20,496 nt of DNA from a virus. Under the pieces are notes generated by a model. It was not told the origin of the DNA, did no database searches, and saw only the letters and a list, made by a program, of their open reading frames with translations. The first letter of the stretch is position 1. Each line of letters opens with the position of its first letter. Both the position numbers and the translations under genes were made by a program. This document shows positions 1 to 20,496 of this stretch, piece by piece. The DNA is taken from positions 3,493 to 23,988 of the IMG/VR virus record IMGVR_UViG_3300003621_000038; one strand, given 5' to 3'.

Positions 1-99
1 AATAATGATATTAAAGCGCCTAAGGGTAGAGTTTTTATTCTAAGAGATGATGATATATCAGTCACCGTAAATTTAGAAGACACGAATAACAGTTATTAA
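1..99 (+). CDS. C-terminal end of an upstream gene (partial)
   Basis: An open frame runs from the left edge to a TAA at 97-99 and gives 32 residues ending in NLEDTNNSY. The gene starts outside the window. The fragment is too short to assign. By position, just before a baseplate-type gene in a T4-like tail cluster, it is probably another baseplate wedge protein (in related phages gp6, gp25 or gp53 genes lie nearby), but this is inference from context only. The AAGGA ribosome site of the next gene (98-102) overlaps this stop codon, so the two genes are probably co-transcribed and translationally linked. Confidence 0.6.
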   Translation, partial: NNDIKAPKGRVFILRDDDISVTVNLEDTNNSY

Positions 100-109
100 G
101 GATTAAACC

Positions 110-2344
110 ATGCAAGTAGAAAAGAATATTGCATTCCTCATAAACCAACAATTTCCTGCATATTTTAGGGAGTATGGTTCTGAGCTCGTGTCTTTAACTG
201 AAGAGTATTATAACTTTTTAGAAACTGAAACGAATCAATCTAATTACGTTAATCGTAGAATGTTTGATTACCGCGACATTTCTTCTACCTTACAGAATAT
301 GCTCATTTCTTTTCAACAAAAATATATGGCAGATCTTCCGTATAGAGAAGAATCAGTTATTATATTAGTTAAGAATATTATAGATCTGTATCGTCGTAAA
401 GGTACTAAGAGTGGTATAAAAACATTCTTTGCCATGTTCTATCAAGAGCAAGTTGAAATCTTCTATCCTGCTAGATTTATGCTCAAGCCTTCTAATTCCA
501 AATGGAAGAAAGGTGTCTATTTACAGATGTTTCCTAATAATGATTTCTTTGTTTCTGTAAATGGTTTAGAATATTCTTATAACGATATATTAGGTGCTAA
601 CATAACTGGTTCTGCATCAGGAGCAAAGGCTGCGGTTGATAAAGTTAATTTTATTGTACTTAATAATATTTTAACTCCTATCGTTTATATTGATAGTGTA
701 CAAGGTACGTTTAAAAAATTCGAATCTATTATTACTAGTTTAAATAATGAAGTTATTTCTTTTGGTAAAATTAATGGATCTCTTAATGCAATTACTCTCG
801 ACTTTTCTAAAGCAAGAACTTCTGGAAATAAAGTTGGTGATATATTAGATTTAGAAACTCAATACGGTTATGGCGGTCAAGCAATCGTTAGTGAAGTTTC
901 AGAAAGTTTTACTGGCGAAATAGATTACGAAATATTAGATGGTGGTTTTGGTTATACTTTAGAAAATACTAAATTAATTGTATCAGATCAATCTTTAATA
1001 TTAGATAATTCTGATTTATCTTTTACTGTCGGAGAATATTTAATTGATACCGCAGGTAACCGTGGTTATGTAGTAGGACAAAATGAAAATTCTGTTGGTT
1101 TAAAAATGGACACCGGCGATGAGTTTTCTATTACAAGAAATATTACAACACAAAACCGATCTCCTAATGTACAAATTGTCCCAGGTGAAGTATCATTAAA
1201 AAATACTTCTTCTCCTGGCGCACTATTCCCTGATACTGCGGATCCTAACGATGTAAGAGTAAAAGAATTAGGAAATCCAGTTACCGCTAATTTAATTACC
1301 GATGATATTCTACCTTACGTAGGTGTTGCTCTAAATAGTGCAAACTATAATACGGCGCAAGCAATGTCGGGTACTGCAGATCCTGTTACGTTAGCAACTC
1401 CATTGGATGAAGCATTTGAATTAACAGAGTTTACATTAGGTTCGATTTTAGATTTTGTAAATGTTTCTCCTGGCGAAAATTATACTAACGATGTATTTTC
1501 TATCGCGGTTGATGAAAGCTATTCTAAATTTAATAGAAGAGATCAAGTCATTACGTTTGAAACACCAGCTGCGGCAGGTTCTTTTAATATTGGCGAAACA
1601 ATTACAGAAGCAAATACAAATATCATTGGTGTAATTCAAGAAACAAATCCAACTGATGGGTATATTAAAATTACTCCTTTTGATTATTATGGTTTTTCTG
1701 GAACTAATGATGTAATTAAATCAAACTCAGATAGATTCGCTATTACAAGAGCAGACACTGATTATGATTCTAAAATACATGGCGAAAATGCTAGTATTAA
1801 ATCTACAACAGAATTTGCGATAGGTCAAATTAAAGAAGTACAAGTATATGATTCTGGTTTTGGATATGTAGATGATGCTGCTGCCAAGTTATTGAATAAC
1901 GACGGTGATACCGCAGTCGAAGGTAATCTTGTTGTACAGACGCAAGGTAGTACTTCAGGATATTGGTCTGATTATACGTCTCACATAAATGGTTATCAAG
2001 AATCTGCAAACGGCGCTCTATCTTATTCTAACGAAGGAATGAAAATACAAGATAGTGATTACTATCAAGAATACTCGTATGAAATAAAATCGATGTTAGG
2101 CCAAGAACAATATGAAACTCTTTTAAAAGAAAACATGCATTTGGCTGGCACTAAAATGTTTAGTAAGTTTTCTTATCAAGCAAAAGCAAAAGGCAATGTT
2201 AAGCAAAGATTCATTAGACGATTTAATGACCAAGGAATTGGTACTCCATTAGATACTATAGATTTATCTGAAGTAACGGCAGATGTATTTAACTTAAGCG
2301 TAGATTCTATAGAATTGACCGTTGATAATGATTCAACTGTATAA
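110..2344 (+). CDS. Baseplate-type virion structural protein, 744 aa
   Basis: The protein has no signal peptide or membrane segment. Residues 1-150 form a compact conserved-looking head, including a basic stretch with YRRKGTKSGIKTFFAMFY (about 95-112). It resembles the N-terminal part of large structural proteins that follow the baseplate wedge genes in marine T4-like phages; this is recalled similarity, not a search. The rest is beta-rich and repetitive. Three copies of a short strand-turn-strand motif ending in G-x-G-Y or a variant occur: GGFGYT at 278-283, PGENYT at 454-459 and SGFGYV at 582-587. They alternate with glycine-rich segments such as FNIGETIT. The same motif occurs in the gp8-like protein at 5210, suggesting a shared baseplate fold. 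The start at 110 has AAGGA seven bases upstream. The role is probably at the baseplate periphery or fibre attachment. The exact T4 counterpart is not clear. Confidence 0.7.
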   Translation: MQVEKNIAFLINQQFPAYFREYGSELVSLTEEYYNFLETETNQSNYVNRRMFDYRDISSTLQNMLISFQQKYMADLPYREESVIILVKNIIDLYRRKGTKSGIKTFFAMFYQEQVEIFYPARFMLKPSNSKWKKGVYLQMFPNNDFFVSVNGLEYSYNDILGANITGSASGAKAAVDKVNFIVLNNILTPIVYIDSVQGTFKKFESIITSLNNEVISFGKINGSLNAITLDFSKARTSGNKVGDILDLETQYGYGGQAIVSEVSESFTGEIDYEILDGGFGYTLENTKLIVSDQSLILDNSDLSFTVGEYLIDTAGNRGYVVGQNENSVGLKMDTGDEFSITRNITTQNRSPNVQIVPGEVSLKNTSSPGALFPDTADPNDVRVKELGNPVTANLITDDILPYVGVALNSANYNTAQAMSGTADPVTLATPLDEAFELTEFTLGSILDFVNVSPGENYTNDVFSIAVDESYSKFNRRDQVITFETPAAAGSFNIGETITEANTNIIGVIQETNPTDGYIKITPFDYYGFSGTNDVIKSNSDRFAITRADTDYDSKIHGENASIKSTTEFAIGQIKEVQVYDSGFGYVDDAAAKLLNNDGDTAVEGNLVVQTQGSTSGYWSDYTSHINGYQESANGALSYSNEGMKIQDSDYYQEYSYEIKSMLGQEQYETLLKENMHLAGTKMFSKFSYQAKAKGNVKQRFIRRFNDQGIGTPLDTIDLSEVTADVFNLSVDSIELTVDNDSTV

Positions 2345-2350
2345 TAAATA
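2343..2350 (+). promoter_or_regulatory. Putative T4-type late promoter (AATAAATA)
   Basis: AATAAATA matches the NATAAATA form of the late promoter described for T4-like cyanophages and differs from the T4 consensus TATAAATA only in its first base. It overlaps the TAA stop codon (2342-2344) of the preceding gene and lies 46 bases before the ATG of the next gene, in a 52-base gap. Transcription would start near 2356, giving a leader of about 40 bases. An eight-base AT-rich motif can arise by chance, but the position is right. Confidence 0.5.
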
Positions 2351-2396
2351 GTTAATGCGAATTAAATAAACAAAATTAAACACTCAGGAGACAATA

Positions 2397-3491
2397 ATGT
2401 CAAAGCAGACGATTAATATCGGAACAACAGCAAATGATGGAACAGGCGATCCATTACGCACTGCATTTGATAAAGCTAATGATAACTTCAATGAGATTTA
2501 CACTTCTTTAGGTGGTAACTCTCTAGTTTCGCTTTTAAATACAAATGGCGAAATTACTCGCACCGGTGCCAATAAAATCACGTTTAAATATAACGCATTA
2601 TCTAATTTACCGGATGCAAATACTTATGAAGGTATGATTGCTTACGTTGATGCAGAATCAGCGGTTTATTATGCAACTGGTGGAGAATGGACAAAATTAT
2701 TAACAGATGCAAGTTCTAGTGTTACTGGATATACTGATAGCTTATCGACAGTTGCTTATACTGGAAGTTTACTAGATTTAAGTGGTGGTATTTCTGACGG
2801 GCAGGCAGGACATGTATTACAAGCAGACGGGGATGGTACTTTTTCTTTCGTAGCTATTTCTGGTGGCGGTGGTGCTTCTGCAATAGACGACTTATCTGAT
2901 GTTTCTATCTCAAGCCCATCATCAGGCGAAGTATTAAAATGGAATGGATCTGCTTGGACTAATGCTGCAGATGCAACAACAGGAACAGGAACTCTTTTAG
3001 GTTTAACTGATACGCCTGCTTCTTTTGGAACCGCAGGTCAAGTACTTGCTGTTAATTCTGGAGCAGACGGTGTAGAATTTGTTGATGCAAGTGGTGGCGG
3101 TGGTAGTTCTTTACAATCAAGAACAGCTGCAAGTGGTACGACCTCATCTTTAGCAGACGATGCTTCTGCAAATTTAGATATCACTGGATTTAAATCATAC
3201 GCATTACTTTCTATTGAAACAGATCGAGCAGCGAGAGTTATTTTATATGCAAATGCAGCGTCAAGAACATCTGACGCATCGAGAGATGAATTAACAGATC
3301 CTTTACCTGATGCAGGTGTAATAGCAGAAGTAATTACGACTGGCGCTGAAACTGTTTTAATGTCACCAGCGACAATTGGTTTTAATGCAGAATCCACTCC
3401 AACCACAACTATATACGCAAAAGTAACAAATAAATCGGGTTCAACTGCAGCGGTTGCTGTGGACCTAACAGTATTACAGTTGGAGGCGTAA
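2397..3491 (+). CDS. Short tail fibre / adhesin-like structural protein, 364 aa
   Basis: The N-terminus (residues 1-38, from MSKQTINIGTTANDGTGDPL to NEIY) is a familiar opening of fibre proteins in marine phages and probably docks to the virion. Residues 125-230 hold three degenerate copies of a fibre repeat built as L-x-D/L ... G-x-V-L-x-x-(N/D)-G: about 125-154, 164-190 and 200-230. The first and third copies are followed by GGGG linkers at 156-159 and 233-236. Residues 240-364 form a separate C-terminal domain (key runs RTSDASRDELTDP, GVIAEVITTG, VTNKSGSTAAVAV) that I recall at the ends of many cyanophage structural proteins, where its ligand is unknown. The start has AGGAG six bases upstream. 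The S8 protease gene begins one base after the stop. A host-binding or decoration role is likely but unproven. Confidence 0.72.
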   Translation: MSKQTINIGTTANDGTGDPLRTAFDKANDNFNEIYTSLGGNSLVSLLNTNGEITRTGANKITFKYNALSNLPDANTYEGMIAYVDAESAVYYATGGEWTKLLTDASSSVTGYTDSLSTVAYTGSLLDLSGGISDGQAGHVLQADGDGTFSFVAISGGGGASAIDDLSDVSISSPSSGEVLKWNGSAWTNAADATTGTGTLLGLTDTPASFGTAGQVLAVNSGADGVEFVDASGGGGSSLQSRTAASGTTSSLADDASANLDITGFKSYALLSIETDRAARVILYANAASRTSDASRDELTDPLPDAGVIAEVITTGAETVLMSPATIGFNAESTPTTTIYAKVTNKSGSTAAVAVDLTVLQLEA

Positions 3492-3492
3492 A

Positions 3493-5151
3493 ATGTCTTT
3501 AAAGGAATATGTAGTTACTCTTCATAGCAGAGAAGATTTAGAAAGTTTCTATGATGACATGGAAACTCCTGGCGGTAACCTTTATATTCCTGATAGACAA
3601 GTTGAAGTTGCTCAGAAAAGACCCATTAGTAGAAATACTCATTATATGTTAACTGCAGAGGAAGCAGAGTTAGTTAGACAGGATGAAAGAGTATGGGACG
3701 TTGAACTAAAAGAAATATTAGACGCAGTCACTATTAAACCTCAAGGTTATTCTATAGACAATGGGCAGTTTGATAAAGACCCTTTTTCTAATGCAGACGA
3801 TATTAATTGGGGATTACTTAGACATTCTGAAAGACAGAATAGAACTGACTGGGGATATGGTGATACTGTAAGAGTAACAGATAATTTAAATATCACTGCT
3901 TCAGGTAAAAATGTAGATGTTGTAATAGTAGACGGTCATATAGATCCAAGCCATCCGGAAATGGCTGCTAACTCAGACGGAACTGGTGGTTCAAGAGTAC
4001 AACAATTTAATTGGTTTTCTTTAAATCCAGATATTGGTCAAGGTGCGGCAGGTACATATGTATATCCACCGTACATAGATGGAACTAATCCTGAGAGAAC
4101 TGGCGATAATAATCATGGCATTCATGTAGCAGGTACAGCCGCAGGAAATACTTACGGTTGGGCAAGAGATGCTAACATTTATAATATCAGTCCTTACGCA
4201 ACAAATCCAAATAGTGTTAGTAACTTATGGGATTATATTAGAGCTTGGCATAATACAAAACCAATAAATGCTGATACAGGTAGAAGAAATCCTACTATCA
4301 CTAACCACAGCTACGGATCTAATATAAATGCAGGTGGCGCTGGAAGTAATTTCGGTAACGTAACGGCTATTAATTATAGAGGCACTACTTTTAACCCAGG
4401 GAGAGATTTAACTCAAGCTGAGCTACAAGCAAGAGGTTGTTATGCCCCTAACGCAGATGGTGAAATAGAGTTTTCTTTTTATTCGACTTCAATAAGAGCA
4501 GACGTACAAGATGCGATATCTGATGGTATTATCGTTGTTCATTCTGCTGGTAATAGCAGTTGGAAGATGGTAAAAACTGGCGATCAGGATTACAATAACG
4601 CAGCGTCTATACCATTCTCTGGTTCTTCATTCAACTTTGCTTTACATAGAGGTGGTTCTTTATCAAGTATTGATGGTGTAATAGTAGTTGGTGCTTTAAG
4701 TTATTTTAAAGATGACAGAAAATCAGATTTTAGTAACTGTGGTAATGCCGTAGATGTTTACGCGGCCGGTGAAGGTATCAATAGTTCTTTATTAACAGGT
4801 GGAGCTACAGACCCAAGAAACGCTTCTTATAGAGTTGGAAAATATAAAGGGACTAGTATGGCTTCTCCACAGGCAGCCGGTCTATTGTCTTGTTTAGCGG
4901 AAACTTGGCCTGGGATGACAAACAGTCAAGCGTCTGATTGGTTGGTATATAACGCAACACAAGAACTAATGTTTGACAGCGAAGCTGATGATGCAATGGA
5001 TAGAACAAGTTTACAAGGTTCACCAAACTTAATGATGTTTTGGAAAAACGTAAGACCAGTTGACGGCGGAGTTTTCCCTAGGAATAATATTGCGTCAAGA
5101 GCTAATTTAAAACAAGTTTATCCAAGACCTAAAATAAGAAGAAAAGGTTAG
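3493..5151 (+). CDS. Subtilisin-like serine protease (peptidase S8 family) with propeptide
   Basis: The 552-residue protein carries a complete S8 active site: Asp147 in VVIVDGHID, His208 in NNHGIHVAGT, oxyanion-hole Asn354 in HSAGNSS and Ser455 in GTSMASPQAAG. Residues 1-73 look like an I9-type inhibitory propeptide: an opening YVVTL strand and a late block YMLTAEEAELVRQDERVWDV with the family's spacing. The His-Ser distance (247 residues) is longer than in subtilisin (157), so the catalytic domain holds insertions, notably around residues 250-330. There is no N-terminal signal peptide, so a host secretion route is not evident and release by lysis or packing in the particle is more likely. 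The ribosome site GGAGG (3482-3486) lies inside the end of the fibre gene, one base separating the two genes, which suggests coupled translation. Possible roles are fibre maturation, digestion of host surface protein, or an unknown virion function. The protease assignment is firm; the role is not. Confidence 0.93.
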   Translation: MSLKEYVVTLHSREDLESFYDDMETPGGNLYIPDRQVEVAQKRPISRNTHYMLTAEEAELVRQDERVWDVELKEILDAVTIKPQGYSIDNGQFDKDPFSNADDINWGLLRHSERQNRTDWGYGDTVRVTDNLNITASGKNVDVVIVDGHIDPSHPEMAANSDGTGGSRVQQFNWFSLNPDIGQGAAGTYVYPPYIDGTNPERTGDNNHGIHVAGTAAGNTYGWARDANIYNISPYATNPNSVSNLWDYIRAWHNTKPINADTGRRNPTITNHSYGSNINAGGAGSNFGNVTAINYRGTTFNPGRDLTQAELQARGCYAPNADGEIEFSFYSTSIRADVQDAISDGIIVVHSAGNSSWKMVKTGDQDYNNAASIPFSGSSFNFALHRGGSLSSIDGVIVVGALSYFKDDRKSDFSNCGNAVDVYAAGEGINSSLLTGGATDPRNASYRVGKYKGTSMASPQAAGLLSCLAETWPGMTNSQASDWLVYNATQELMFDSEADDAMDRTSLQGSPNLMMFWKNVRPVDGGVFPRNNIASRANLKQVYPRPKIRRKG

Positions 5152-5162
5152 CTGCTCTCTCA

Positions 5163-5170
5163 TATAAATA
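5163..5170 (+). promoter_or_regulatory. T4-type late promoter (TATAAATA, perfect match)
   Basis: TATAAATA is identical to the T4 late promoter element recognised by the phage sigma factor gp55. It sits in the 58-base gap between the protease and gp8-like genes, 12 bases after the protease stop and 39 bases before the next ATG. The predicted start near 5176 gives a leader of about 34 bases. It would drive the baseplate unit starting with the gp8-like gene. Confidence 0.75.
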
Positions 5171-5209: not shown

Positions 5210-6811
5210 ATGGCAGAAATATTGACAACAAACTTTAAGACTGATACGACACGGTTGTTCGTGGACGACGTTTTAAGTAATGATTACTATTTGTTCGTAT
5301 CTAGTATAAACGGTACAGAATCGGCAAATCATATCAGATCGACAAATGATTTTTTAGAAAAAACTTTATTTGGTAAACAAATTTTTAACAGCGATGTTTT
5401 CTTCATGATCAAGTATTATCCTTGGCAAAAAGATGATGTCTACGTACAATACGATGATGCTGAAGATTTAGAAGAACAGAAATTTTATGCAGTTGTTGGT
5501 CCTAATAATAATGATACCGGCGATTATCGAGTATATAAATGTTTATTTAATAATAACGATGCGCAAGTTACTTCACCGCCTAATTACGATGGACAGACCG
5601 CAGGTCAAATATATAGAACTGCTGATGGCTACGTATGGAAATATATGTATGCAATTTCAGAATTAGAATTTGAAGCTTACAATGCTTTAGGTTATATTCC
5701 TATCACAGGAACTTTTGAAACTGATCCGACCGCAAACACAGGTGGTTCTGAAATTGCTGAAATATTCGTAGAAAATCCTGATGTAAACTTAGGATATAAA
5801 TCTGTATTTGGATCTATGAATGGATCACCTAATGGTTCTAGTTTAATAGTTATTCCTGGGCAAGTTCCTGCATGGAGCGAGCTTGATAATTATTATGCAG
5901 GCCAATCAGTTTATTTAACTAATCCTAGTGGTGTTTCTTTTCTATATGTTATAACGTTCTATGCGTATAACGAGAATACTGGTTTGGCAGAAATAAGAGT
6001 TGATGGAAATCCTGCTACCGATGGGGTTGCTAGTAACGCAAGTCTTAAAATACTTCCTACGATAGAAATTCTAGGTGATGGTTCTGGTGCTCAAGGTATT
6101 CCTAACATAGATAACAATGATCGCATTACTTCTGTTACAATGCTAAACAATGGTGTTGGATACAATAACGTAACAGTTAGAGTAATTGATCCATTATATG
6201 ATTTCAAACCAGATGATCCTAATGATACAGATACAAGAGCAGATGTAAGAGCTATTCTTTCTCCTAAAGATGGTCATGCGTTTGATCTTATAGATGAATT
6301 TAAATGTAAACATTTCTTACTATACGCATATATTACTGCCGAAGACAATAACCAAATTGGTGCAACTAATACATATGCAACTGTTGGTATAGTAAAAAAT
6401 CCAGAGTTTGCTAATACAGCGCCTGGAGTTTTTGATAACAGAATTGCTATTACAACAGACGATATTGGAAAGGTTGAAGAAAATACGATAGTAAATCAAA
6501 TCGACGACAATAACGAAATCATATTTTCAGGGATTGTTCACGAAGTTGATTTATCAAGTAATACCATGTTTATCGCTGAATATAATGGCCCATACCAAAA
6601 CGTGGGCAATACTGATATTTCTTTAGACACAACTGTTCCATTTAGAAATGAGACAGGTCAGACAATTGAAATAAATACACCAGTGGACAACAATATAATA
6701 AAATCAGAATACATACAAAGAACAGGCAAAGTGTACTTTATGGAAGACTTCTTCCCGCTTGCTCGAACTGATCTCTCACGCGAAGAGTTCAAAATCGTTC
6801 TTGAATTTTAA
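5210..6811 (+). CDS. 8: Baseplate wedge protein, T4 gp8-like, 533 aa
   Basis: In T4, gp8 is a wedge protein of the baseplate that bridges gp7, gp10 and gp6. The N-terminal 160 residues carry the family's recognisable blocks: TRLFVDDVLSNDYYLFVSS, an aromatic-rich run MIKYYPWQKDDVYVQYDD, and DGYVWKYMYAIS near 142-153. The protein is about 200 residues longer than T4 gp8 (334). The extra material seems to lie in the middle (about 180-340) and includes NNGVGYNNVTVRV, a G-x-G-Y motif (Tyr318) shared with the 744-residue protein upstream. The C-terminus ends with an acidic, aromatic segment (VYFMEDFFPLARTDLSREEF), which fits the family. The ribosome site is weak (GGAA at 5201-5204). It is probably co-transcribed with the following DUF4815 gene, 16 bases downstream. 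Confidence 0.85.
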   Translation: MAEILTTNFKTDTTRLFVDDVLSNDYYLFVSSINGTESANHIRSTNDFLEKTLFGKQIFNSDVFFMIKYYPWQKDDVYVQYDDAEDLEEQKFYAVVGPNNNDTGDYRVYKCLFNNNDAQVTSPPNYDGQTAGQIYRTADGYVWKYMYAISELEFEAYNALGYIPITGTFETDPTANTGGSEIAEIFVENPDVNLGYKSVFGSMNGSPNGSSLIVIPGQVPAWSELDNYYAGQSVYLTNPSGVSFLYVITFYAYNENTGLAEIRVDGNPATDGVASNASLKILPTIEILGDGSGAQGIPNIDNNDRITSVTMLNNGVGYNNVTVRVIDPLYDFKPDDPNDTDTRADVRAILSPKDGHAFDLIDEFKCKHFLLYAYITAEDNNQIGATNTYATVGIVKNPEFANTAPGVFDNRIAITTDDIGKVEENTIVNQIDDNNEIIFSGIVHEVDLSSNTMFIAEYNGPYQNVGNTDISLDTTVPFRNETGQTIEINTPVDNNIIKSEYIQRTGKVYFMEDFFPLARTDLSREEFKIVLEF

Positions 6812-13594: not shown

Positions 13595-16500
13595 ATGTCT
13601 AAGATTTCAGAACTCGGGCCGATTACAGGCGCCAATACAAGAACAGAAGATCTTTTTGTTATCGTTAACCTAGTACAAGGTGATGATGGCACAAAGAACA
13701 TTTCACGTAAAGAACTTGTAGAGGCAATTCAGTACGAAATATTCTCAAGAATCACGATCACTGGCGGAACAATATCCGGCGTTGAGATGTCGGATTCTCT
13801 TATTTTTGATGTAACAATCAATGACTCAATCATTAACGATAACGTAATTAATGATTCTACCTTAAACAACAGTACAATATACACTGCTTACGCAAATAAC
13901 GTCACGATGGAAAACTCCACGATTGACGAATCAGAAATTTCTAACTCTTCTTTTGCGAACGGTTCATTAACAGATTCTACAGCAGATAATCTTACTATTA
14001 TCAATTCTTCCTTTGCGAATGGTTCTGTTGAAGATTCAACTGCAAATAATGTAACAATTACAAATTCTAGCTTTGCAGACGGATCTATCGAAGATTCAAC
14101 TGCAAATAATGTAACAATTACAAATTCTATTTTTGAAGACGGTTCTATTGAAACTGCAACCGCTAACAACGTAACAATTACTAATTCTTCTTTCACCGAT
14201 GGTACATTAGCTGACTCTGACGCAAATAATTTAGTTATTACCAACTCTGATTTTACAGACGGTACACTAGCCGATTCAGATGCAAATAACTTAGTCATTA
14301 CTTCTTCTGAGTTTAATAATGGTACTGCTGACAGCGTAATAATTACGAATTCCGAATTTAACGAAGGCACTGCTGACGATGTAACAATCACGAATTCTGA
14401 GTTCAATCAAGGTAATATTACTGAAGTAAATGTTGATGATGCCACTATTGTCAATTCAGATTTTTCTGATGGTACAGGCAATAATAATGTATTTACTAAC
14501 ACAACAATAGATCAAGGTGAAATTACTAATTCTGTCATTTCAAATACAGAATTCCAAGGATCTATGGATAATGTTGTCGCTACCAACTTACAGATTTCAA
14601 GTTCATCTGCAGCGGGTCTTGACCAAAGACAATCAACGTTTGATGATGGTAAAGTAACTGGATCTACGTTCGACAATGGTGAAATCACAAATTCAACATT
14701 AACTGATATTGATTTAAATCTTACTAAGAAATTTGACGAACCACAAATTGACGAAGATTCTTATTTTGCATTAAAAAATAACATAACTGGCGAAACAGAA
14801 CAGTTCAGCTACAAACAATTCTTTGATGAAATTTCAAAGACTGTAGAAAAATCATTAAAAGTACACGTTGCCGTAGATGGTGATGATTCCAACCCTGGTA
14901 CAATATTACAACCAGTACAAACATTAGAAAGAGCTGCTGAACTTGCTTTAGAAAAAGCAGGCGGTAAATATGATCGTAACGATGTTAATAATGCAGTTCA
15001 TATTTCTTGTGGCCCTGGTACATATTACACAAAAGGTAATGTTGCTTTACCTGATGATTGTTCTTTATCTTCAACATCAGGACAATATGCGACAGTTATT
15101 CAAGCACTTCCTGGGTACGAAAGAAATAACGCAATTCTAGTTGGTTCTGGTTGTTATGTTCAAGGTTTCTCATACTTAGGTTGGGAAATTGACAACTTCG
15201 ATTATCCAGAAGGTGGTTTTGGTGTTGCATATCGCCCAGGCGCTAAATTACGTCGTTCTCCATATTTACGAGATTCCACACAGTTATCAAACTTCTTACG
15301 TGAAGATGTTGAAGCACCTTTAGTACCATTCAACTCTAAAGGTGGTATTTCTGATTTAGGTACCACACTTTATATACAATCACACTCTGGTGATTTTGCA
15401 GAAGGTGATGAAGTTACATTCTCAAGCGGTGCTACTGGGTTTATATCGACTGCTGATTATTTGGTTTCAGATGACGAATTATTTGTACGTAACATTAAAG
15501 GTACAATTTCAGATGGCGATTTATTATTCGCAGAATCTGGTGGTACTGCAACTATTGATACGGTTGGTCCTGAAGATTTCCCTAATGCGTTAGTTGGTCG
15601 TGGTGGTGGTTGTGTACTTGCAGATAGACGAGTACTAGATCCTGACTCGTTATATACTTACGTATTATGTTTCGGTTTTACACCACGTACGCAAAACGGT
15701 ATGGGATATGTTGCTCGTGACGGTGCTGGTATTAACGGTATCGGTTCACTATCAATATTCGTACGATGCGCATTCTATGCATTGAACGGTGGCCAAATGA
15801 CTCTGAATAACTCAGGTACTCAGTTTGGTGATATCTCAATGCGAGCTAAAGGTTCAACTGTCGTATTTGCTCCTAAAGAAATTAGCGATTCTAATGTATT
15901 ATTACAAAACACTGTATTCGCTGATACGCTAGAAGAACAATCTGAAATCATTATAGATGATGTTGTTGAATTCTTAACAGCAAATACTGCGGCAGGCGGT
16001 TTAGGTTATCAAGCATACGATGCAGATAAATGCGAACGTGACTCAGGAATTATCGTTGATCGTGTTGCGTTGGATATTGCTACGCAATCAAACTACTGGG
16101 GTCGTTTGGCAGGTATTACTTACCGTTCACCTATCTCGTATACAGTTATCAACGAGCAATTAGATGAAACTACAGGTGCTATAAGACACCTTAAATCTGA
16201 ACTGACAAGTACATTCGAAAACGCAGATCAAGCTGTTGTAGACGCTGTTAACACATCATTTAATGAAATATTAAACACAATCGAATATGGCGAAGAGTAC
16301 GCAAGTCCTATTATCTTTACTGATACTGGAGACATTGCTAAGACTGCATCTCGAGAGTTATTACAAGATAACAGAACATTAATTCAAGATGCCACAATTG
16401 ATTGGATCGAAAATAACGACGAGTTCTTCTCATACGATAGCGTAAAATGCCGTCGTGATACAAAAGAATATATCTTACCTGCTGTTGAATTAGATATGCA

Positions 16501-19500
16501 GTTAGATACAAACTACAATGCGGTAACTGCAGGTAATGCTTATTATATGGCAACTGCTTCTAAGGTTGTAGAAAATCAAAGAGAAGAAACAATTGCTGCA
16601 TATAATCGTTTGAAAGACCAAACGATGGAATTAATTGATAACGCAAATACTTATTTAGCAACATCAAGAGCTGATAAAGCATTAAGTGAAATTGTTAATA
16701 TCATTAACGATGGCGATAAGACATATACTCCTAGCAGTGCTGCGTATGATCCAGTATCTGGTTTGTTTACAATCACATTAGGTGACCATGTTTTAGTTGA
16801 AGGTTCAAGTATATTACTTACTCCTAACAGCTTTACATTTACTTGTGGTTCAGACGGCGATCGTTCTACAATTACACATCCTCGTTTAACAGATCCTGCT
16901 TACAATCAGCCATTAAGAATTATTTCTACGACTGATACTACGGTTACTGTAAACGTAGGTACTTCTACTGAAACATCAACTCATACATTTATTAAAGCTG
17001 ATGCGTCGGCAGTGCAAGTTGTTGCTTCTAAAATTTACTTCAGTGATGATACTGGTATCGCTGCTGATAAACGCAACGCAAGAATACAATTACAAAATAA
17101 TAGAACATATATCCAAGATCATATCATGGGTTACATCGATGATAACTATTTCGTATATGATAGTGAAAAATGTCAACGTGATACTAAAGATTATATCTTG
17201 CCTGCAGTACAAAGAGATCTATTATTAGGTACTAACTTTAACGCAATCCAAACAGGTATCGGTTATTATTCTGCAACAGCGAGTGAAGTTGTTGATGGTC
17301 AATTGCCAGAAACTGTTGCTGCTGTTGGTGAATTAAAACAGTTAGTTGCTAATAACGTATTATCTGATGCAGATTCAATTGTAAGAACTGATGCTGCATT
17401 TAATGAAATCATTGATATTATGAACAACGGTTTAACTGCAGTAAATGATATTACTTGGTCAAACCCAACAACTGATTTAGAATTCTTTACTCCAACAACT
17501 GCTACTTATGACCCATTAACTGGTGATTCTGTAATTACAATCGCAAGTCATGGTTTACAAGTTGGCGATAATATTATGATTAGACCGAACGGTTTAACAT
17601 TTGAATGCGGTTCTCCTGCTGAAGAAATATCTCATCCACGTGTAGGTGATCCTGCATACGAATCAGCGGTCGAGATTACTGCAGTTACTACTGATACAAT
17701 TACAGTAAATGTTGGTGATGCAAATGGTTATACTGGTGCTCATACATTCGTTAGTGCAATCAGTCAAGCAATTGTTAAAGTATCAATTACAGAAGACGGT
17801 TCTAATGCTCGTAAGCAATTAATGGCTAACAGAACATTTATTCAAGAAGAAATATATGCATGGATCCAAGATAACTATTTCGGTTATAAAGGTGACAAAT
17901 GCGCAAGAGATGTTGGTTTAATTTTAGATGCAGTAAGACGAGATGTTCAAACTGGTTCTAACTTTAATGCAATCTTCGCAGGTTTAGCATATCGTTCTGG
18001 TAACGCAAGTACTGATGCTGTAATCAACGAACAATTAAGTGAAACTGTAGATGCAATTAACTTTATTAAATCTAGAATTTCTAACGAATTATCTGGTACT
18101 CCATTAACAAGAGCAGGCGCTGCTTTTGATGAAATCATCGATATCATGGAGAATGGTACAGGTAATGCGGATTCAATTGATTTAGGTTCAGGTGATTTAA
18201 CAGTTGAACGTTCAGCTGCAGTAGATTCATTACAGAATAACAAAACATTCTTACAAGATGAAATCACAGCTTGGATTGCAGAAACTTATCCTTCATTAAC
18301 TTACGATGTAGCTAAATGTGAAAGAGATGTTGGTTACTTAGTTGATTCTATATCGTTTGATATTAAGAATGGCGGTAATACTGCAGCAATTAACAACGCA
18401 AGATTGTATTTTGATAATGCGGTAAGTATATTACCTGAAGGACAAAAGGTTCCTACTGCAAAAGCATTTAAACATATCGCGCAAGTTGCCGAAGATATTG
18501 TACAACAAAGAGAAGTTACGCCAACGACAGGTAACACCACTTCTCAGGTATTCTCAACTGGTCTAACTCCAACCGGAGCAACTTACGATGTAGCAACGGG
18601 TGTTACTGTACTTACATTAGGTGCAGGTCATGGATTGGTTACCGGCGATTACATTGTCATAAGTGAAGAAGGAATTACATTTGAATGTGGTTCTCCTGCA
18701 GTTCAAATATCGCATCCTAGAGCTACAGATCCTGCTTTCAATAATCCATTACAGATTTTAGCAAGTGATTCTACTACGATCACTGTTAACGTTGGTGATG
18801 CAAATGGTTACACAGGCGTTCACGCGTTCGTCAGTGCAACTTCAGGATCGGTCAAACAATCATATGTCGTAGAAGGTCAGGAAGCAAATGATCTAGTATC
18901 AATCGTAGCCGATATGATTGAAGACGACGATTTTGGTAAATTACCTGCTATTGAAGAACCTGCTCATACAAATGGTTTAGAATATACTGAAGCAAACAAA
19001 ATTATCTTTGGTCAAACTGCATTCTTACAAGGCGAAGTAATTGAATTCTTAGCCGATAATAACGACGGATTGGCATACGATCAAGATTTATGTTATAGAG
19101 ATATTGGTTACATCGTTGACGCAATTGCGCAAGATGTTGAATACGGTGGAAATGCTGCAACTGTTAATGCTGCTACATTCTACTTCAACAATGCGGTAAA
19201 TATTTTACCGGTCGAACAACGTGAACCGACAAGACAAGCTTACTTATATCTTGGTAACATTTTAGATAATATCATCCGCGAAGTAACAGTAACTCCTACG
19301 ACAGGAAATACTGCAACTCAAGATAAGTCAGGTACTCCTGGTTCTGTATCTATCGCAGCTGAAGCAAACAGTTTAGCACAGATTGTCGCTAACACTGTTG
19401 ATAATTTATCTCCGCTAGAATTACCAAGTGTATCAGGCGCTCCTGCATACAATCCTAGAAAGGCATTTGCTCGCAAATCTCTACAAGCAAATAAAGCATT

Positions 19501-20496
19501 CTTACAACAAGAAGTTATATCGTATCTTAATGACAGATACTTTACTTACGATGGCGAAAAATGTAAGAGAGACGTTGGTTATATAATGGATTCAGTTAAA
19601 CGTGATGTTAAGACTGGTTCTAATTTCAACGCAATCTTTGCTGGTTTAGCATATCGTTCAGGTACTGTTGGTTCTACATTGGTTGTAGAAGATCAGTTAG
19701 CAGAAACAGTTGCAGCGATTGAAAATGTAAGAGATGATGTCGTTGACCAAGTGGAAGGTGTAGGTGCTAAAGAAGACACGACTGACGCGTTTAATGAATT
19801 AATTGATATTATGACTAACGATGTCGCCGCTGCTGATACTATCAACTTCGGTAATTTCTATGGAAGTGTTGCTAGAGTAAATGGTAGAGTACAGCTACAA
19901 AATAACAAAGCATTCTTACAAGCTGAAGTTACTGCTTGGATTGCTGATAATTATCCTAGCTTATCATATGATTCTGCTAAGTGCGAAAGAGATGTTGGTT
20001 ATATCTTAGATTCAGTATCTTGGGATGTTCAACATGCAAGTAACACTGCATCTATCAATAACGCAACAATTTATTTTGAAAATGCGGTTAGTATATTACC
20101 GTTAGATCAACGCGCGCCGACTGCTGCTGCATTCGCTCACTTGGCGTCTGTTGCTGGGGATGTTGCCAACGAAACTGTAGTTACTCCTACGACAGGTAAT
20201 ACTGAGACTCAAGACTTTAGCGGTTCAGTCGCAGGTTCTGCTGTAGCTGCTGAAATTGAAGATTTAATTGCTATCATTACCGATGCAGTTACTGCTAACT
20301 CTTTATCTTCTCTACCTGATGCGATCGAACCAGCAGGTTTAGGTACAGGTTATACTGAAGAATTAAATACTGCATTTACGACAATAGATAATGCAAAAGA
20401 ATTCGAACAAAATACTGTTCTTGATTTCTTAGCAGAAAATTACAATGCATTACCTTACAACGAAGCAAAATGTAAGAGAGATGTTGGTTATATAAT
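13595..20496 (+). CDS. Giant modular tail fibre / virion structural protein (partial, at least 2300 aa)
   Basis: The frame opens at ATG 13595 and has no stop before the right edge, so the C-terminus is missing. Residues 1-50 (KISELGPITG, DLFVIVNLVQGDDGTKNISR) match the adaptor-like opening of marine phage fibres. Residues 53-322 are 54 consecutive pentapeptide-like repeats, with a second run of six at 347-376. Residues 423 to about 775 open with VHVAVDGDDSNPGTILQPVQ and IHISCGPGTYYTKGN, a typical cap of pectin-lyase-like right-handed beta-helices. From about 780 onward come mostly helical repeats, each with a conserved Cys in K-C-x-R-D or a variant: Cys813, 952, 1193, 1436, 1575, 1833, 1990, 2130 and 2293. 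A beta module is inserted in three of them. I recall similar repeats in cyanophage structural proteins of unknown role. No catalytic motif is evident. It is probably a long host-contact fibre or sheath-associated whisker. Confidence 0.82.
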   Translation, partial: MSKISELGPITGANTRTEDLFVIVNLVQGDDGTKNISRKELVEAIQYEIFSRITITGGTISGVEMSDSLIFDVTINDSIINDNVINDSTLNNSTIYTAYANNVTMENSTIDESEISNSSFANGSLTDSTADNLTIINSSFANGSVEDSTANNVTITNSSFADGSIEDSTANNVTITNSIFEDGSIETATANNVTITNSSFTDGTLADSDANNLVITNSDFTDGTLADSDANNLVITSSEFNNGTADSVIITNSEFNEGTADDVTITNSEFNQGNITEVNVDDATIVNSDFSDGTGNNNVFTNTTIDQGEITNSVISNTEFQGSMDNVVATNLQISSSSAAGLDQRQSTFDDGKVTGSTFDNGEITNSTLTDIDLNLTKKFDEPQIDEDSYFALKNNITGETEQFSYKQFFDEISKTVEKSLKVHVAVDGDDSNPGTILQPVQTLERAAELALEKAGGKYDRNDVNNAVHISCGPGTYYTKGNVALPDDCSLSSTSGQYATVIQALPGYERNNAILVGSGCYVQGFSYLGWEIDNFDYPEGGFGVAYRPGAKLRRSPYLRDSTQLSNFLREDVEAPLVPFNSKGGISDLGTTLYIQSHSGDFAEGDEVTFSSGATGFISTADYLVSDDELFVRNIKGTISDGDLLFAESGGTATIDTVGPEDFPNALVGRGGGCVLADRRVLDPDSLYTYVLCFGFTPRTQNGMGYVARDGAGINGIGSLSIFVRCAFYALNGGQMTLNNSGTQFGDISMRAKGSTVVFAPKEISDSNVLLQNTVFADTLEEQSEIIIDDVVEFLTANTAAGGLGYQAYDADKCERDSGIIVDRVALDIATQSNYWGRLAGITYRSPISYTVINEQLDETTGAIRHLKSELTSTFENADQAVVDAVNTSFNEILNTIEYGEEYASPIIFTDTGDIAKTASRELLQDNRTLIQDATIDWIENNDEFFSYDSVKCRRDTKEYILPAVELDMQLDTNYNAVTAGNAYYMATASKVVENQREETIAAYNRLKDQTMELIDNANTYLATSRADKALSEIVNIINDGDKTYTPSSAAYDPVSGLFTITLGDHVLVEGSSILLTPNSFTFTCGSDGDRSTITHPRLTDPAYNQPLRIISTTDTTVTVNVGTSTETSTHTFIKADASAVQVVASKIYFSDDTGIAADKRNARIQLQNNRTYIQDHIMGYIDDNYFVYDSEKCQRDTKDYILPAVQRDLLLGTNFNAIQTGIGYYSATASEVVDGQLPETVAAVGELKQLVANNVLSDADSIVRTDAAFNEIIDIMNNGLTAVNDITWSNPTTDLEFFTPTTATYDPLTGDSVITIASHGLQVGDNIMIRPNGLTFECGSPAEEISHPRVGDPAYESAVEITAVTTDTITVNVGDANGYTGAHTFVSAISQAIVKVSITEDGSNARKQLMANRTFIQEEIYAWIQDNYFGYKGDKCARDVGLILDAVRRDVQTGSNFNAIFAGLAYRSGNASTDAVINEQLSETVDAINFIKSRISNELSGTPLTRAGAAFDEIIDIMENGTGNADSIDLGSGDLTVERSAAVDSLQNNKTFLQDEITAWIAETYPSLTYDVAKCERDVGYLVDSISFDIKNGGNTAAINNARLYFDNAVSILPEGQKVPTAKAFKHIAQVAEDIVQQREVTPTTGNTTSQVFSTGLTPTGATYDVATGVTVLTLGAGHGLVTGDYIVISEEGITFECGSPAVQISHPRATDPAFNNPLQILASDSTTITVNVGDANGYTGVHAFVSATSGSVKQSYVVEGQEANDLVSIVADMIEDDDFGKLPAIEEPAHTNGLEYTEANKIIFGQTAFLQGEVIEFLADNNDGLAYDQDLCYRDIGYIVDAIAQDVEYGGNAATVNAATFYFNNAVNILPVEQREPTRQAYLYLGNILDNIIREVTVTPTTGNTATQDKSGTPGSVSIAAEANSLAQIVANTVDNLSPLELPSVSGAPAYNPRKAFARKSLQANKAFLQQEVISYLNDRYFTYDGEKCKRDVGYIMDSVKRDVKTGSNFNAIFAGLAYRSGTVGSTLVVEDQLAETVAAIENVRDDVVDQVEGVGAKEDTTDAFNELIDIMTNDVAAADTINFGNFYGSVARVNGRVQLQNNKAFLQAEVTAWIADNYPSLSYDSAKCERDVGYILDSVSWDVQHASNTASINNATIYFENAVSILPLDQRAPTAAAFAHLASVAGDVANETVVTPTTGNTETQDFSGSVAGSAVAAEIEDLIAIITDAVTANSLSSLPDAIEPAGLGTGYTEELNTAFTTIDNAKEFEQNTVLDFLAENYNALPYNEAKCKRDVGYI
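13751..14560 (+). repeat. 54 tandem pentapeptide-like repeats (residues 53-322 of the giant fibre)
   Basis: Reading residues 53-322 in fives gives a nearly unbroken pattern x-(T/S)-hydrophobic-x-(N/D), for example VTITN, SSFAD, GSIED, STANN. The third position is I, F, L, V, M or A in nearly all pentads. Four pentads make a 20-residue, 60-base higher unit, clear from about 13920 to 14310. Later units shorten to three pentads (45 bases, for example FNEGTADDVTITNSE) without losing the five-residue register. In pentapeptide-repeat proteins four pentads form one coil of a square beta-helix, so this segment is likely a stalk. The N/D position differs from the classic A(D/N)LXX pattern, so the exact fold is inferred. 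The segment has no Cys or Pro. Confidence 0.8.
14030..14129 (+). repeat. 40-base perfect direct repeat, 60 bases apart
   Basis: Positions 14030-14069 and 14090-14129 are identical over 40 bases, in frame with the 20-residue higher unit of the pentad array. Other neighbouring units are alike in protein but differ more in DNA, so this pair points to a recent unit duplication or local gene conversion. Gain or loss of one unit would keep the reading frame. Confidence 0.85.
14633..14722 (+). repeat. Second short pentad run (residues 347-376)
   Basis: After a 24-residue break, six more pentads appear in a new register: STFDD, GKVTG, STFDN, GEITN, STLTD and IDLNL. The break may be a kink or joint between two beta-helical rods before the charged helical linker that leads to the pectin-lyase-like domain. 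Confidence 0.55.
16739..17005 (+). repeat. Inserted beta module, copy 1 (residues 1049-1137)
   Basis: This segment reads AAYDPVSGLFTITLG, then FTFTCGSDGD, ITHPRLTDPAYNQPL and TVTVNVG. It accounts for most of the difference between the 139-residue core spacing and the 241-residue spacing between Cys952 and Cys1193. It is the most diverged of the three copies and lacks the NGYTG turn. Confidence 0.75.
17501..17758 (+). repeat. Inserted beta module, copy 2 (residues 1303-1388)
   Basis: This copy reads ATYDPLTGDSVITIASHGL, then LTFECGSPAEEISHPRVGDP, TITVNVGDANGYTG and HTFVSA. It sits in the next A-variant repeat, in the same relative place as copy 1. Cys, His-Pro-Arg and Asp-Pro-Ala are shared by all three copies. 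Confidence 0.8.
18578..18838 (+). repeat. Inserted beta module, copy 3 (residues 1662-1748)
   Basis: This copy reads ATYDVATGVTVLTLGAGHGL, then ITFECGSPAVQISHPRATDP, TITVNVGDANGYTG and HAFVSA. It follows the VTPTTGNT segment of a type B repeat, a different host context from copies 1 and 2, which lie in type A variants. DNA similarity to copy 2 is clear around GTTGGTGATGCAAATGGTTA. Confidence 0.8.

Follow-up and report, generated by a model that had tools for sequence, protein, structure and literature searches.

A subtilisin-type protease gene paired with a conserved fibre domain in marine T4-like phages

Why would a T4-like phage encode a subtilisin-type protease directly behind a fibre gene, and where would such an enzyme act? 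The question is raised by a stretch of 20,496 nucleotides from the IMG/VR virus record IMGVR_UViG_3300003621_000038 (positions 3,493 to 23,988 of that record), here called the window, in which a sequence-only reading had proposed a protease zymogen at positions 3493-5151. Our best reading, which we hold with slightly better than even confidence, is that the zymogen is mounted on the end of a baseplate fibre and acts outside the cell. The features of the protease gene are as follows.

3493..5151, + strand: subtilase (peptidase S8) gene, ATG start, 552 aa, free of in-frame stops
3493..3711, + strand: putative I9-type prodomain, residues 1-73 (order of secondary structure in the model; weak I9 / S8_pro-domain Pfam matches among family members)
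3904..4965, + strand: catalytic domain, residues 138-491, proteinase K-like (PF00082; Foldseek)
3931..3933, + strand: catalytic Asp147 in D-G-H (D in 57/59 homologues, E in 2/59)
4114..4116, + strand: catalytic His208 (H in 59/59)
4552..4554, + strand: oxyanion-hole Asn354 (N in 59/59)
4855..4857, + strand: nucleophile Ser455 (S in 59/59)
5119..5148, + strand: basic C-terminal tail YPRPKIRRKG, candidate docking motif (conserved in sequence, disordered in the model)

The gene encodes an intact enzyme of the S8 family, as judged from a profile match above the curated cut-off and from the catalytic order D-H-N-S. The PF00082 match to residues 138-491 is far beyond chance (E 3.6e-26, 92.6 bits against a Pfam cut-off of 21.8), PHROG 9158 covers residues 3-538 (E 1.2e-119), and PF00082 and PHROG 9158 / 15006 were the only matches in Pfam and PHROG. 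The PDB chains matched by sequence were subtilases without exception. The four active-site residues lie exactly at the positions given by the sequence-only reading, in the contexts IVDGHID (Asp147), NNHGIHVAGT (His208), SAGNSS (Asn354) and GTSMAS (Ser455). The usual S8 signature D-[ST]-G, which is not a strict requirement for membership, is replaced by D-G-H at Asp147; the H at this place is shared by 49 of the 59 homologues, and D-[ST]-G is retained in a second S8 subfamily described below. An AlphaFold2 model built from 38 window-type sequences (mean pLDDT 87.4) matched proteinase K-like enzymes in Foldseek with E-values of about 1e-16 to 1e-19 and TM scores by target length of 0.82-0.86 (0.86 for proteinase K). 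As modelled, the protein has the subtilisin / proteinase K fold, and we infer the geometry of the triad from this fold match.

The predicted fold, the catalytic order and the putative I9-type prodomain are common to the window protease and to proteinase K and subtilisin. Unlike these enzymes, it is paired with a phage fibre, carries a conserved basic C-terminal tail, has a His-to-Ser interval longer by roughly 90 residues and lacks a signal peptide, in that no hydrophobic stretch is visible at its N-terminus (MSLKEYVVTLHSREDLE...), as had been claimed. The insertions between His and Ser that the sequence-only reading described are real, since the two residues are 247 positions apart compared with 155 by the residue numbering of proteinase K, whereas no support was found for the virion-docking role that it had assigned to them.

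The proposal that residues 1-73 form an I9-like propeptide held for the order of the fold in the model, with weak backing from sequence profiles. Residues 4-72, located N-terminally of the S8 domain, are predicted to follow the beta-alpha-beta-beta-alpha-beta order of the I9 prodomain (strand 4-10, helix 16-24, strand 39-42, strand 48-53, helix 55-62, strand 67-72). In an alignment of 42 N-termini, Inhibitor_I9 (PF05922) was the Pfam family found most often among the members with matches, but the five matches were weak and below the cut-off (best E 0.0098), the window protease itself did not match PF05922, and no solved propeptide was found by sequence with the profile of the N-terminus. When aligned in Foldseek with pro-subtilisin E (3whi) and pro-Tk-SP (3afg), the model matched over more than 500 columns at an rmsd near 20 Å; we take this to mean that its prodomain is placed differently. 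An I9-like prodomain is thus supported, but not proven.

The most informative feature of the locus, which the sequence-only reading had overlooked, is the C-terminal domain (CTD) of the upstream fibre, and the features of this part of the window are listed here.

2397..3491, + strand: fibre gene, 364 aa, directly upstream of the protease gene (open reading frame; PF07880 match)
2403..2516, + strand: gp9/gp10-type N-terminal baseplate-attachment motif of the fibre (PF07880 T4_gp9_10_N, residues 3-40, E 4.3e-8)
3108..3488, + strand: fibre CTD, 127 aa, compact all-beta (AlphaFold2 mean pLDDT 95.5)
3482..3486, + strand: GGAGG ribosome-binding site of the protease gene, inside the terminal fibre codons (QLEA-stop)
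5210..6811, + strand: next gene, baseplate wedge subunit, gp8-like (phrog_438, E 1.2e-49)

The gp8-like gene places the pair within a baseplate gene cluster. Conservation is much higher in the CTD than in the central part of the fibre, and a [ND]DG[TNS]GD motif was seen in 31 of 41 non-redundant fibre N-termini. The fold of the CTD gives no function, because searches of the PDB returned nothing at E <= 0.001 (the best match was the HFTV1 turret protein at 1.3e-3) and those of a viral library returned only cyanophage fibres and weak matches to unnamed phage proteins. When two of the loci, L165 and L170, are compared, their CTDs are 94% alike, whereas 50% of positions differ between the proteases and 86% between the fibre N-termini, a contrast which suggests that the CTD may serve as a recombination anchor.

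The junction of the two genes is tight. The fibre gene ends with TAA at 3489-3491, and the protease gene starts with ATG at 3493, so that the one-base gap and the GGAGG inside the end of the fibre gene, at 3482-3486, are as originally described; the ribosome-binding site is encoded by the final codons of the fibre, QLEA-stop. With the protease as query, a fibre of the CTD kind was found directly upstream in 68 of the 71 loci with at least 400 nt of upstream sequence, the exceptions being L085 (a frame-broken open reading frame), L080 (the first of two tandem S8 genes) and L087. With the CTD as query in a scan of viral contigs, from which the best 80 of 218 were kept, an S8 gene was next in all 76 readable loci (>=300 nt downstream), at -1 to +7 nt; rarer partners are under-sampled in this best 80 of 218. 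Thirty-four of the junctions from the CTD scan (again the best 80 of 218) were absent from the protease search, and about 80 distinct junctions were obtained from both searches combined. The tight coupling to the fibre noted in the window extends to its relatives in both directions. In 156 of 156 pairs, the distance between the fibre stop and the protease start codon is -4 to +7 nt; the 15 nt ahead of the start contain GGAGG in 76 pairs and GAGG in a further 52.

The pair is found in several genome contexts: the window, S-H38 and S-CREM1 have it inside the baseplate cluster, S-RSM4 and S-WAM2 near talC. Tandem S8 genes occur in L050 and L080, each behind its own fibre-like open reading frame, and their proteases have strongly diverged. 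A special co-divergence of CTD and protease received no support from a mirror-tree comparison of 41 loci, where S8 distances correlated at 0.58 with those of the CTD versus 0.67 with those of the fibre N-terminus. Locus L087 (3986-5767), with Glu in place of the catalytic Asp and located directly behind a wedge-like gene, is the sole S8 locus with long upstream sequence but no fibre of the CTD kind.

It is conceivable that the enzyme acts inside the infected cell and breaks down proteins of the host there, in which case its adjacency to the fibre would reflect late expression only. The lack of a visible signal peptide fits this explanation, and auxiliary enzymes do occur in phages. We nevertheless consider it very unlikely, given the specific and conserved pairing with one fibre domain on many contigs and in several genome contexts, and given the virion label on a homologue in S-SCSM1. 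The late promoter sequence TATAAATA occurs once in the window, at 5163-5170 before gp8, and is not evidence here, since 3.65 sites are expected by chance.

Another explanation is that the subtilisin fold mainly gives the CTD structural support, as a cap, or assists its folding, and that catalysis is a minor function or missing. A chaperone encoded by the downstream gene is the usual arrangement for phage fibres; in Pam3, for example, gp25 adjoins gp24 and acts on the distal part of the fibre (PMC9608196). The window protease is likewise adjacent to its fibre, whereas gp25 is not a protease and works without the involvement of catalytic residues. The replacement of the catalytic Asp by Glu in S-CAM1 and L087 would also agree with a structural role. 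However, His, Asn and Ser are invariant in 59 non-identical homologues and Asp is kept in 57, none of which a purely structural role requires, and the prodomain is retained. We therefore regard this explanation as improbable. The degraded active sites that the sequence-only reading had named as a sign against its proposal were not seen among these homologues, and pairwise dN/dS ratios of about 0.03-0.36 (pairs with dS above 0.1) indicate purifying selection. Judging from this conservation, the window enzyme is most likely catalytic.

The cargo behind the CTD is exchanged between phages. In the four cyanophages S-BM3, Sf-CH1b, S-SCSM1 (gp141) and ACG-2014i (gp165), the CTD precedes another, non-protease family at a distance of 1-5 nt. 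These alternative partners have no Pfam match, and have in common a GNTGW-type N-terminus and a PCPYYLPDDF C-terminal region of their own; an N-terminus shared with the S8 proteins was looked for by eye and not seen. ACG-2014i and its IMG/VR relatives contain one cassette of each kind, and in the siphophage S-CBS2 a distant CTD match is followed by yet another protein. Furthermore, fibres with another C-terminal domain in common precede a second S8 subfamily (P-SSM2, S-SCSM1, S-T4, Sf-CH8), and the C-terminus of some S8 variants bears domains that are Laminin_G/lectin-like or, weakly, cupredoxin-like. From these sequence patterns, the CTD looks like an exchangeable mount.

Such exchange also bears on the main rival to our reading, in which the subtilisin is an assembly protease: it would cleave the neighbouring fibre, or some other component of the tail, as the particle is built, and would have no working role of its own in the virion. 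The near-obligate pairing with one fibre domain and the coupled translation are in line with this rival, as is the fact that small helpers of tail fibres often adjoin their fibre, like gp25 and gp24 of Pam3 (PMC9608196). That the CTD also precedes non-protease partners argues against it being only a protease substrate, and implies that a protease as such is not needed. The conserved QLEA end of the fibre is largely dictated by the ribosome-binding site, and no conserved candidate for a cut site was noted. Subtilases usually have broad specificity, which is another point against the rival, and the S8 homologue in S-SCSM1 is labelled as a virion protein. All in all, we consider an assembly protease rather unlikely.

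On the side of the protease, the recurrent conserved feature that corresponds to the fibre CTD is the basic C-terminal tail. A YPRx[RK][IV] motif was found at the C-terminus of 63 of 85 distinct proteins and in none of the other open reading frames examined, and residues 526-552 of the window protease have pLDDT values below 50. This conserved disordered tail, YPRxRIRRRG, or the added C-terminal domain in other members, is a candidate for the contact with the mount. Eight loci (L053, L054, L059, L063, L081, L082, L091, L170) have an insertion of about 300 aa between the catalytic Asp and His, which is alike across the loci, has no Pfam or convincing PDB match and contains a potentially metal-binding stretch, E-H-L-M-H-T-I-H. 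L068 (3998-6394) has another kind of insertion, which precedes the catalytic Asp and is roughly 230 aa long.

Does the protease travel with the particle? The presence of the protease in virions is supported by data of another group on a relative, the phage S-SCSM1. Its gp144, a protein of 1411 aa from the second S8 subfamily with an intact catalytic set and Laminin_G domains, is marked as a virion protein in the GenBank notes. This label is placed on 47 features across the whole record, and 45 virion proteins were identified by mass spectrometry in S-SCSM1, with NMNAT, a lysozyme-like enzyme and a D-Ala-D-Ala carboxypeptidase named among the non-structural ones (PMC9602691). Since the two counts are similar and all three of the named proteins bear the label, it very probably stands for detection. 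Carriage by the virion, which the sequence-only reading had suggested, is accordingly probable. S-SCSM1 also encodes a prohead protease (gp040) besides the subtilase, for which reason we rejected the idea that the subtilase replaces the head protease, and the window protease showed no homology to gp21-type prohead proteases in Pfam or PHROG. No paper on the protease as a virion enzyme was found in the open-access literature, an absence that carries little weight.

Tail fibres of other phages offer a parallel for the gene order. In the T4-type gp37-gp38 pairs, for example those of PP01 and S16, a distal fibre gene is likewise followed directly by the gene of an end protein that can be exchanged, which in PP01 is a receptor-binding protein at the tip (PMC12892980). 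In the CTD cassette, too, the gene immediately after a conserved fibre end is exchangeable. The partner here, on the other hand, is an enzyme whose place at the tip is putative, and no sequence homology of the protease to gp38 adhesins was found in Pfam or PHROG.

We hypothesize that the genes at 2397-3491 and 3493-5151 constitute a fibre-plus-cargo cassette. The fibre would join the baseplate via its gp9/gp10-type N-terminus, and the CTD would be the mount, or the platform for assembly, that receives whatever the next gene encodes, in this case a subtilisin produced as an I9-inhibited zymogen. Coupled translation would produce the protease beside its mount, and the prodomain would keep it silent in the cytoplasm. 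Once docked on the CTD and assembled onto the particle, the protease would lose its prodomain and, thus activated, could cut a protein on the host surface during adsorption, this being the most natural substrate for an enzyme borne on a fibre. More broadly, and with less assurance, we suggest that the CTD might be a general mount on the baseplates of marine T4-like phages, with interchangeable cargo that is mostly a zymogen subtilisin digesting host-surface protein.

The enzymes with which phage particles digest surfaces are mostly known for sugars and peptidoglycan. If our reading is true, the subtilisin would be a proteolytic counterpart of the polysaccharide depolymerases of tailspikes and a protein-digesting tool carried by many marine phages. 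It would also provide a testable function for a PHROG family left as unknown, and the CTD, for which binding of the protease or, in its place, of the alternative partner is predicted, would offer a natural means of attaching enzymes to a fibre.

The protease family itself is already known by annotation in cyanophages, as PHROG 9158 / T4-GC 292, a point that had escaped the sequence-only reading. The window protein belongs to this family over its whole length, and the family members are also located behind a fibre or tail pin gene. Matches were found in 47 of 50,697 phage records, all of them cyanomyoviruses or marine single-cell virus records, at 23-42% identity, and 80 protease loci were kept from IMG/VR. 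Identity was 36-42% to the full-length homologues of S-WAM2, S-H38, Sf-FR1 and S-CREM1 and 29% to P-SSM2_297, which is noted as T4-GC 292; the names subtilisin-like serine protease (Sf-FR1) and peptidase (S-CREM1) are already in use in GenBank. No function or pairing of PHROG 9158 / T4-GC 292 is described in the open-access papers searched, and on that basis the near-obligate pairing of fibre and protease and the exchange of cargo appear to be undescribed. Other S8 peptidases of marine T4-like phages fall into separate clusters, T4-GC 518 in P-HM1 and P-HM2 (Sullivan et al., 2010; PMC3037559) and T4-GC 519 in S-BM3, the latter within a protein of 2648 aa that matches PF00082 only in part.

Nor are the homologues scattered insertions derived from hosts, the other outcome that the sequence-only reading had weighed against itself. 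The eight matches in a collection of bacterial and archaeal genomes, all contigs of metagenome bins, have a phage fibre directly upstream (8/8), and we therefore take them to be phage genes and reject a host origin. The Rhodobacteraceae bin contigs FZLS01000013.1, FZLS01000008.1 and FZLS01000012.1 (L183-L185), which carry the phage cassette, are probably phage contigs binned with a bacterium.

In contrast to the cyanophage members of PHROG 9158, the window phage has core genes that are nearest to those of phiN3 and phiM12. Its gp6 is closest to these Sinorhizobium phages (44-45%), and its wedge gene to Caulobacter phage Cr30 and phiN3/phiM12, which places it among the T4-like phages outside the known cyanophages and suggests, from these sequence affinities, a separate marine lineage. 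The core baseplate genes at 1-3491 and upstream of the window (L093) are likewise nearest to the alphaproteobacterial T4-like phages phiM12, phiN3 and Cr30. Further downstream, positions 13595-20494 encode a very long structural protein of at least 2300 aa that runs off the window and has N-terminal tandem repeats of the type TITNSSFADGS.
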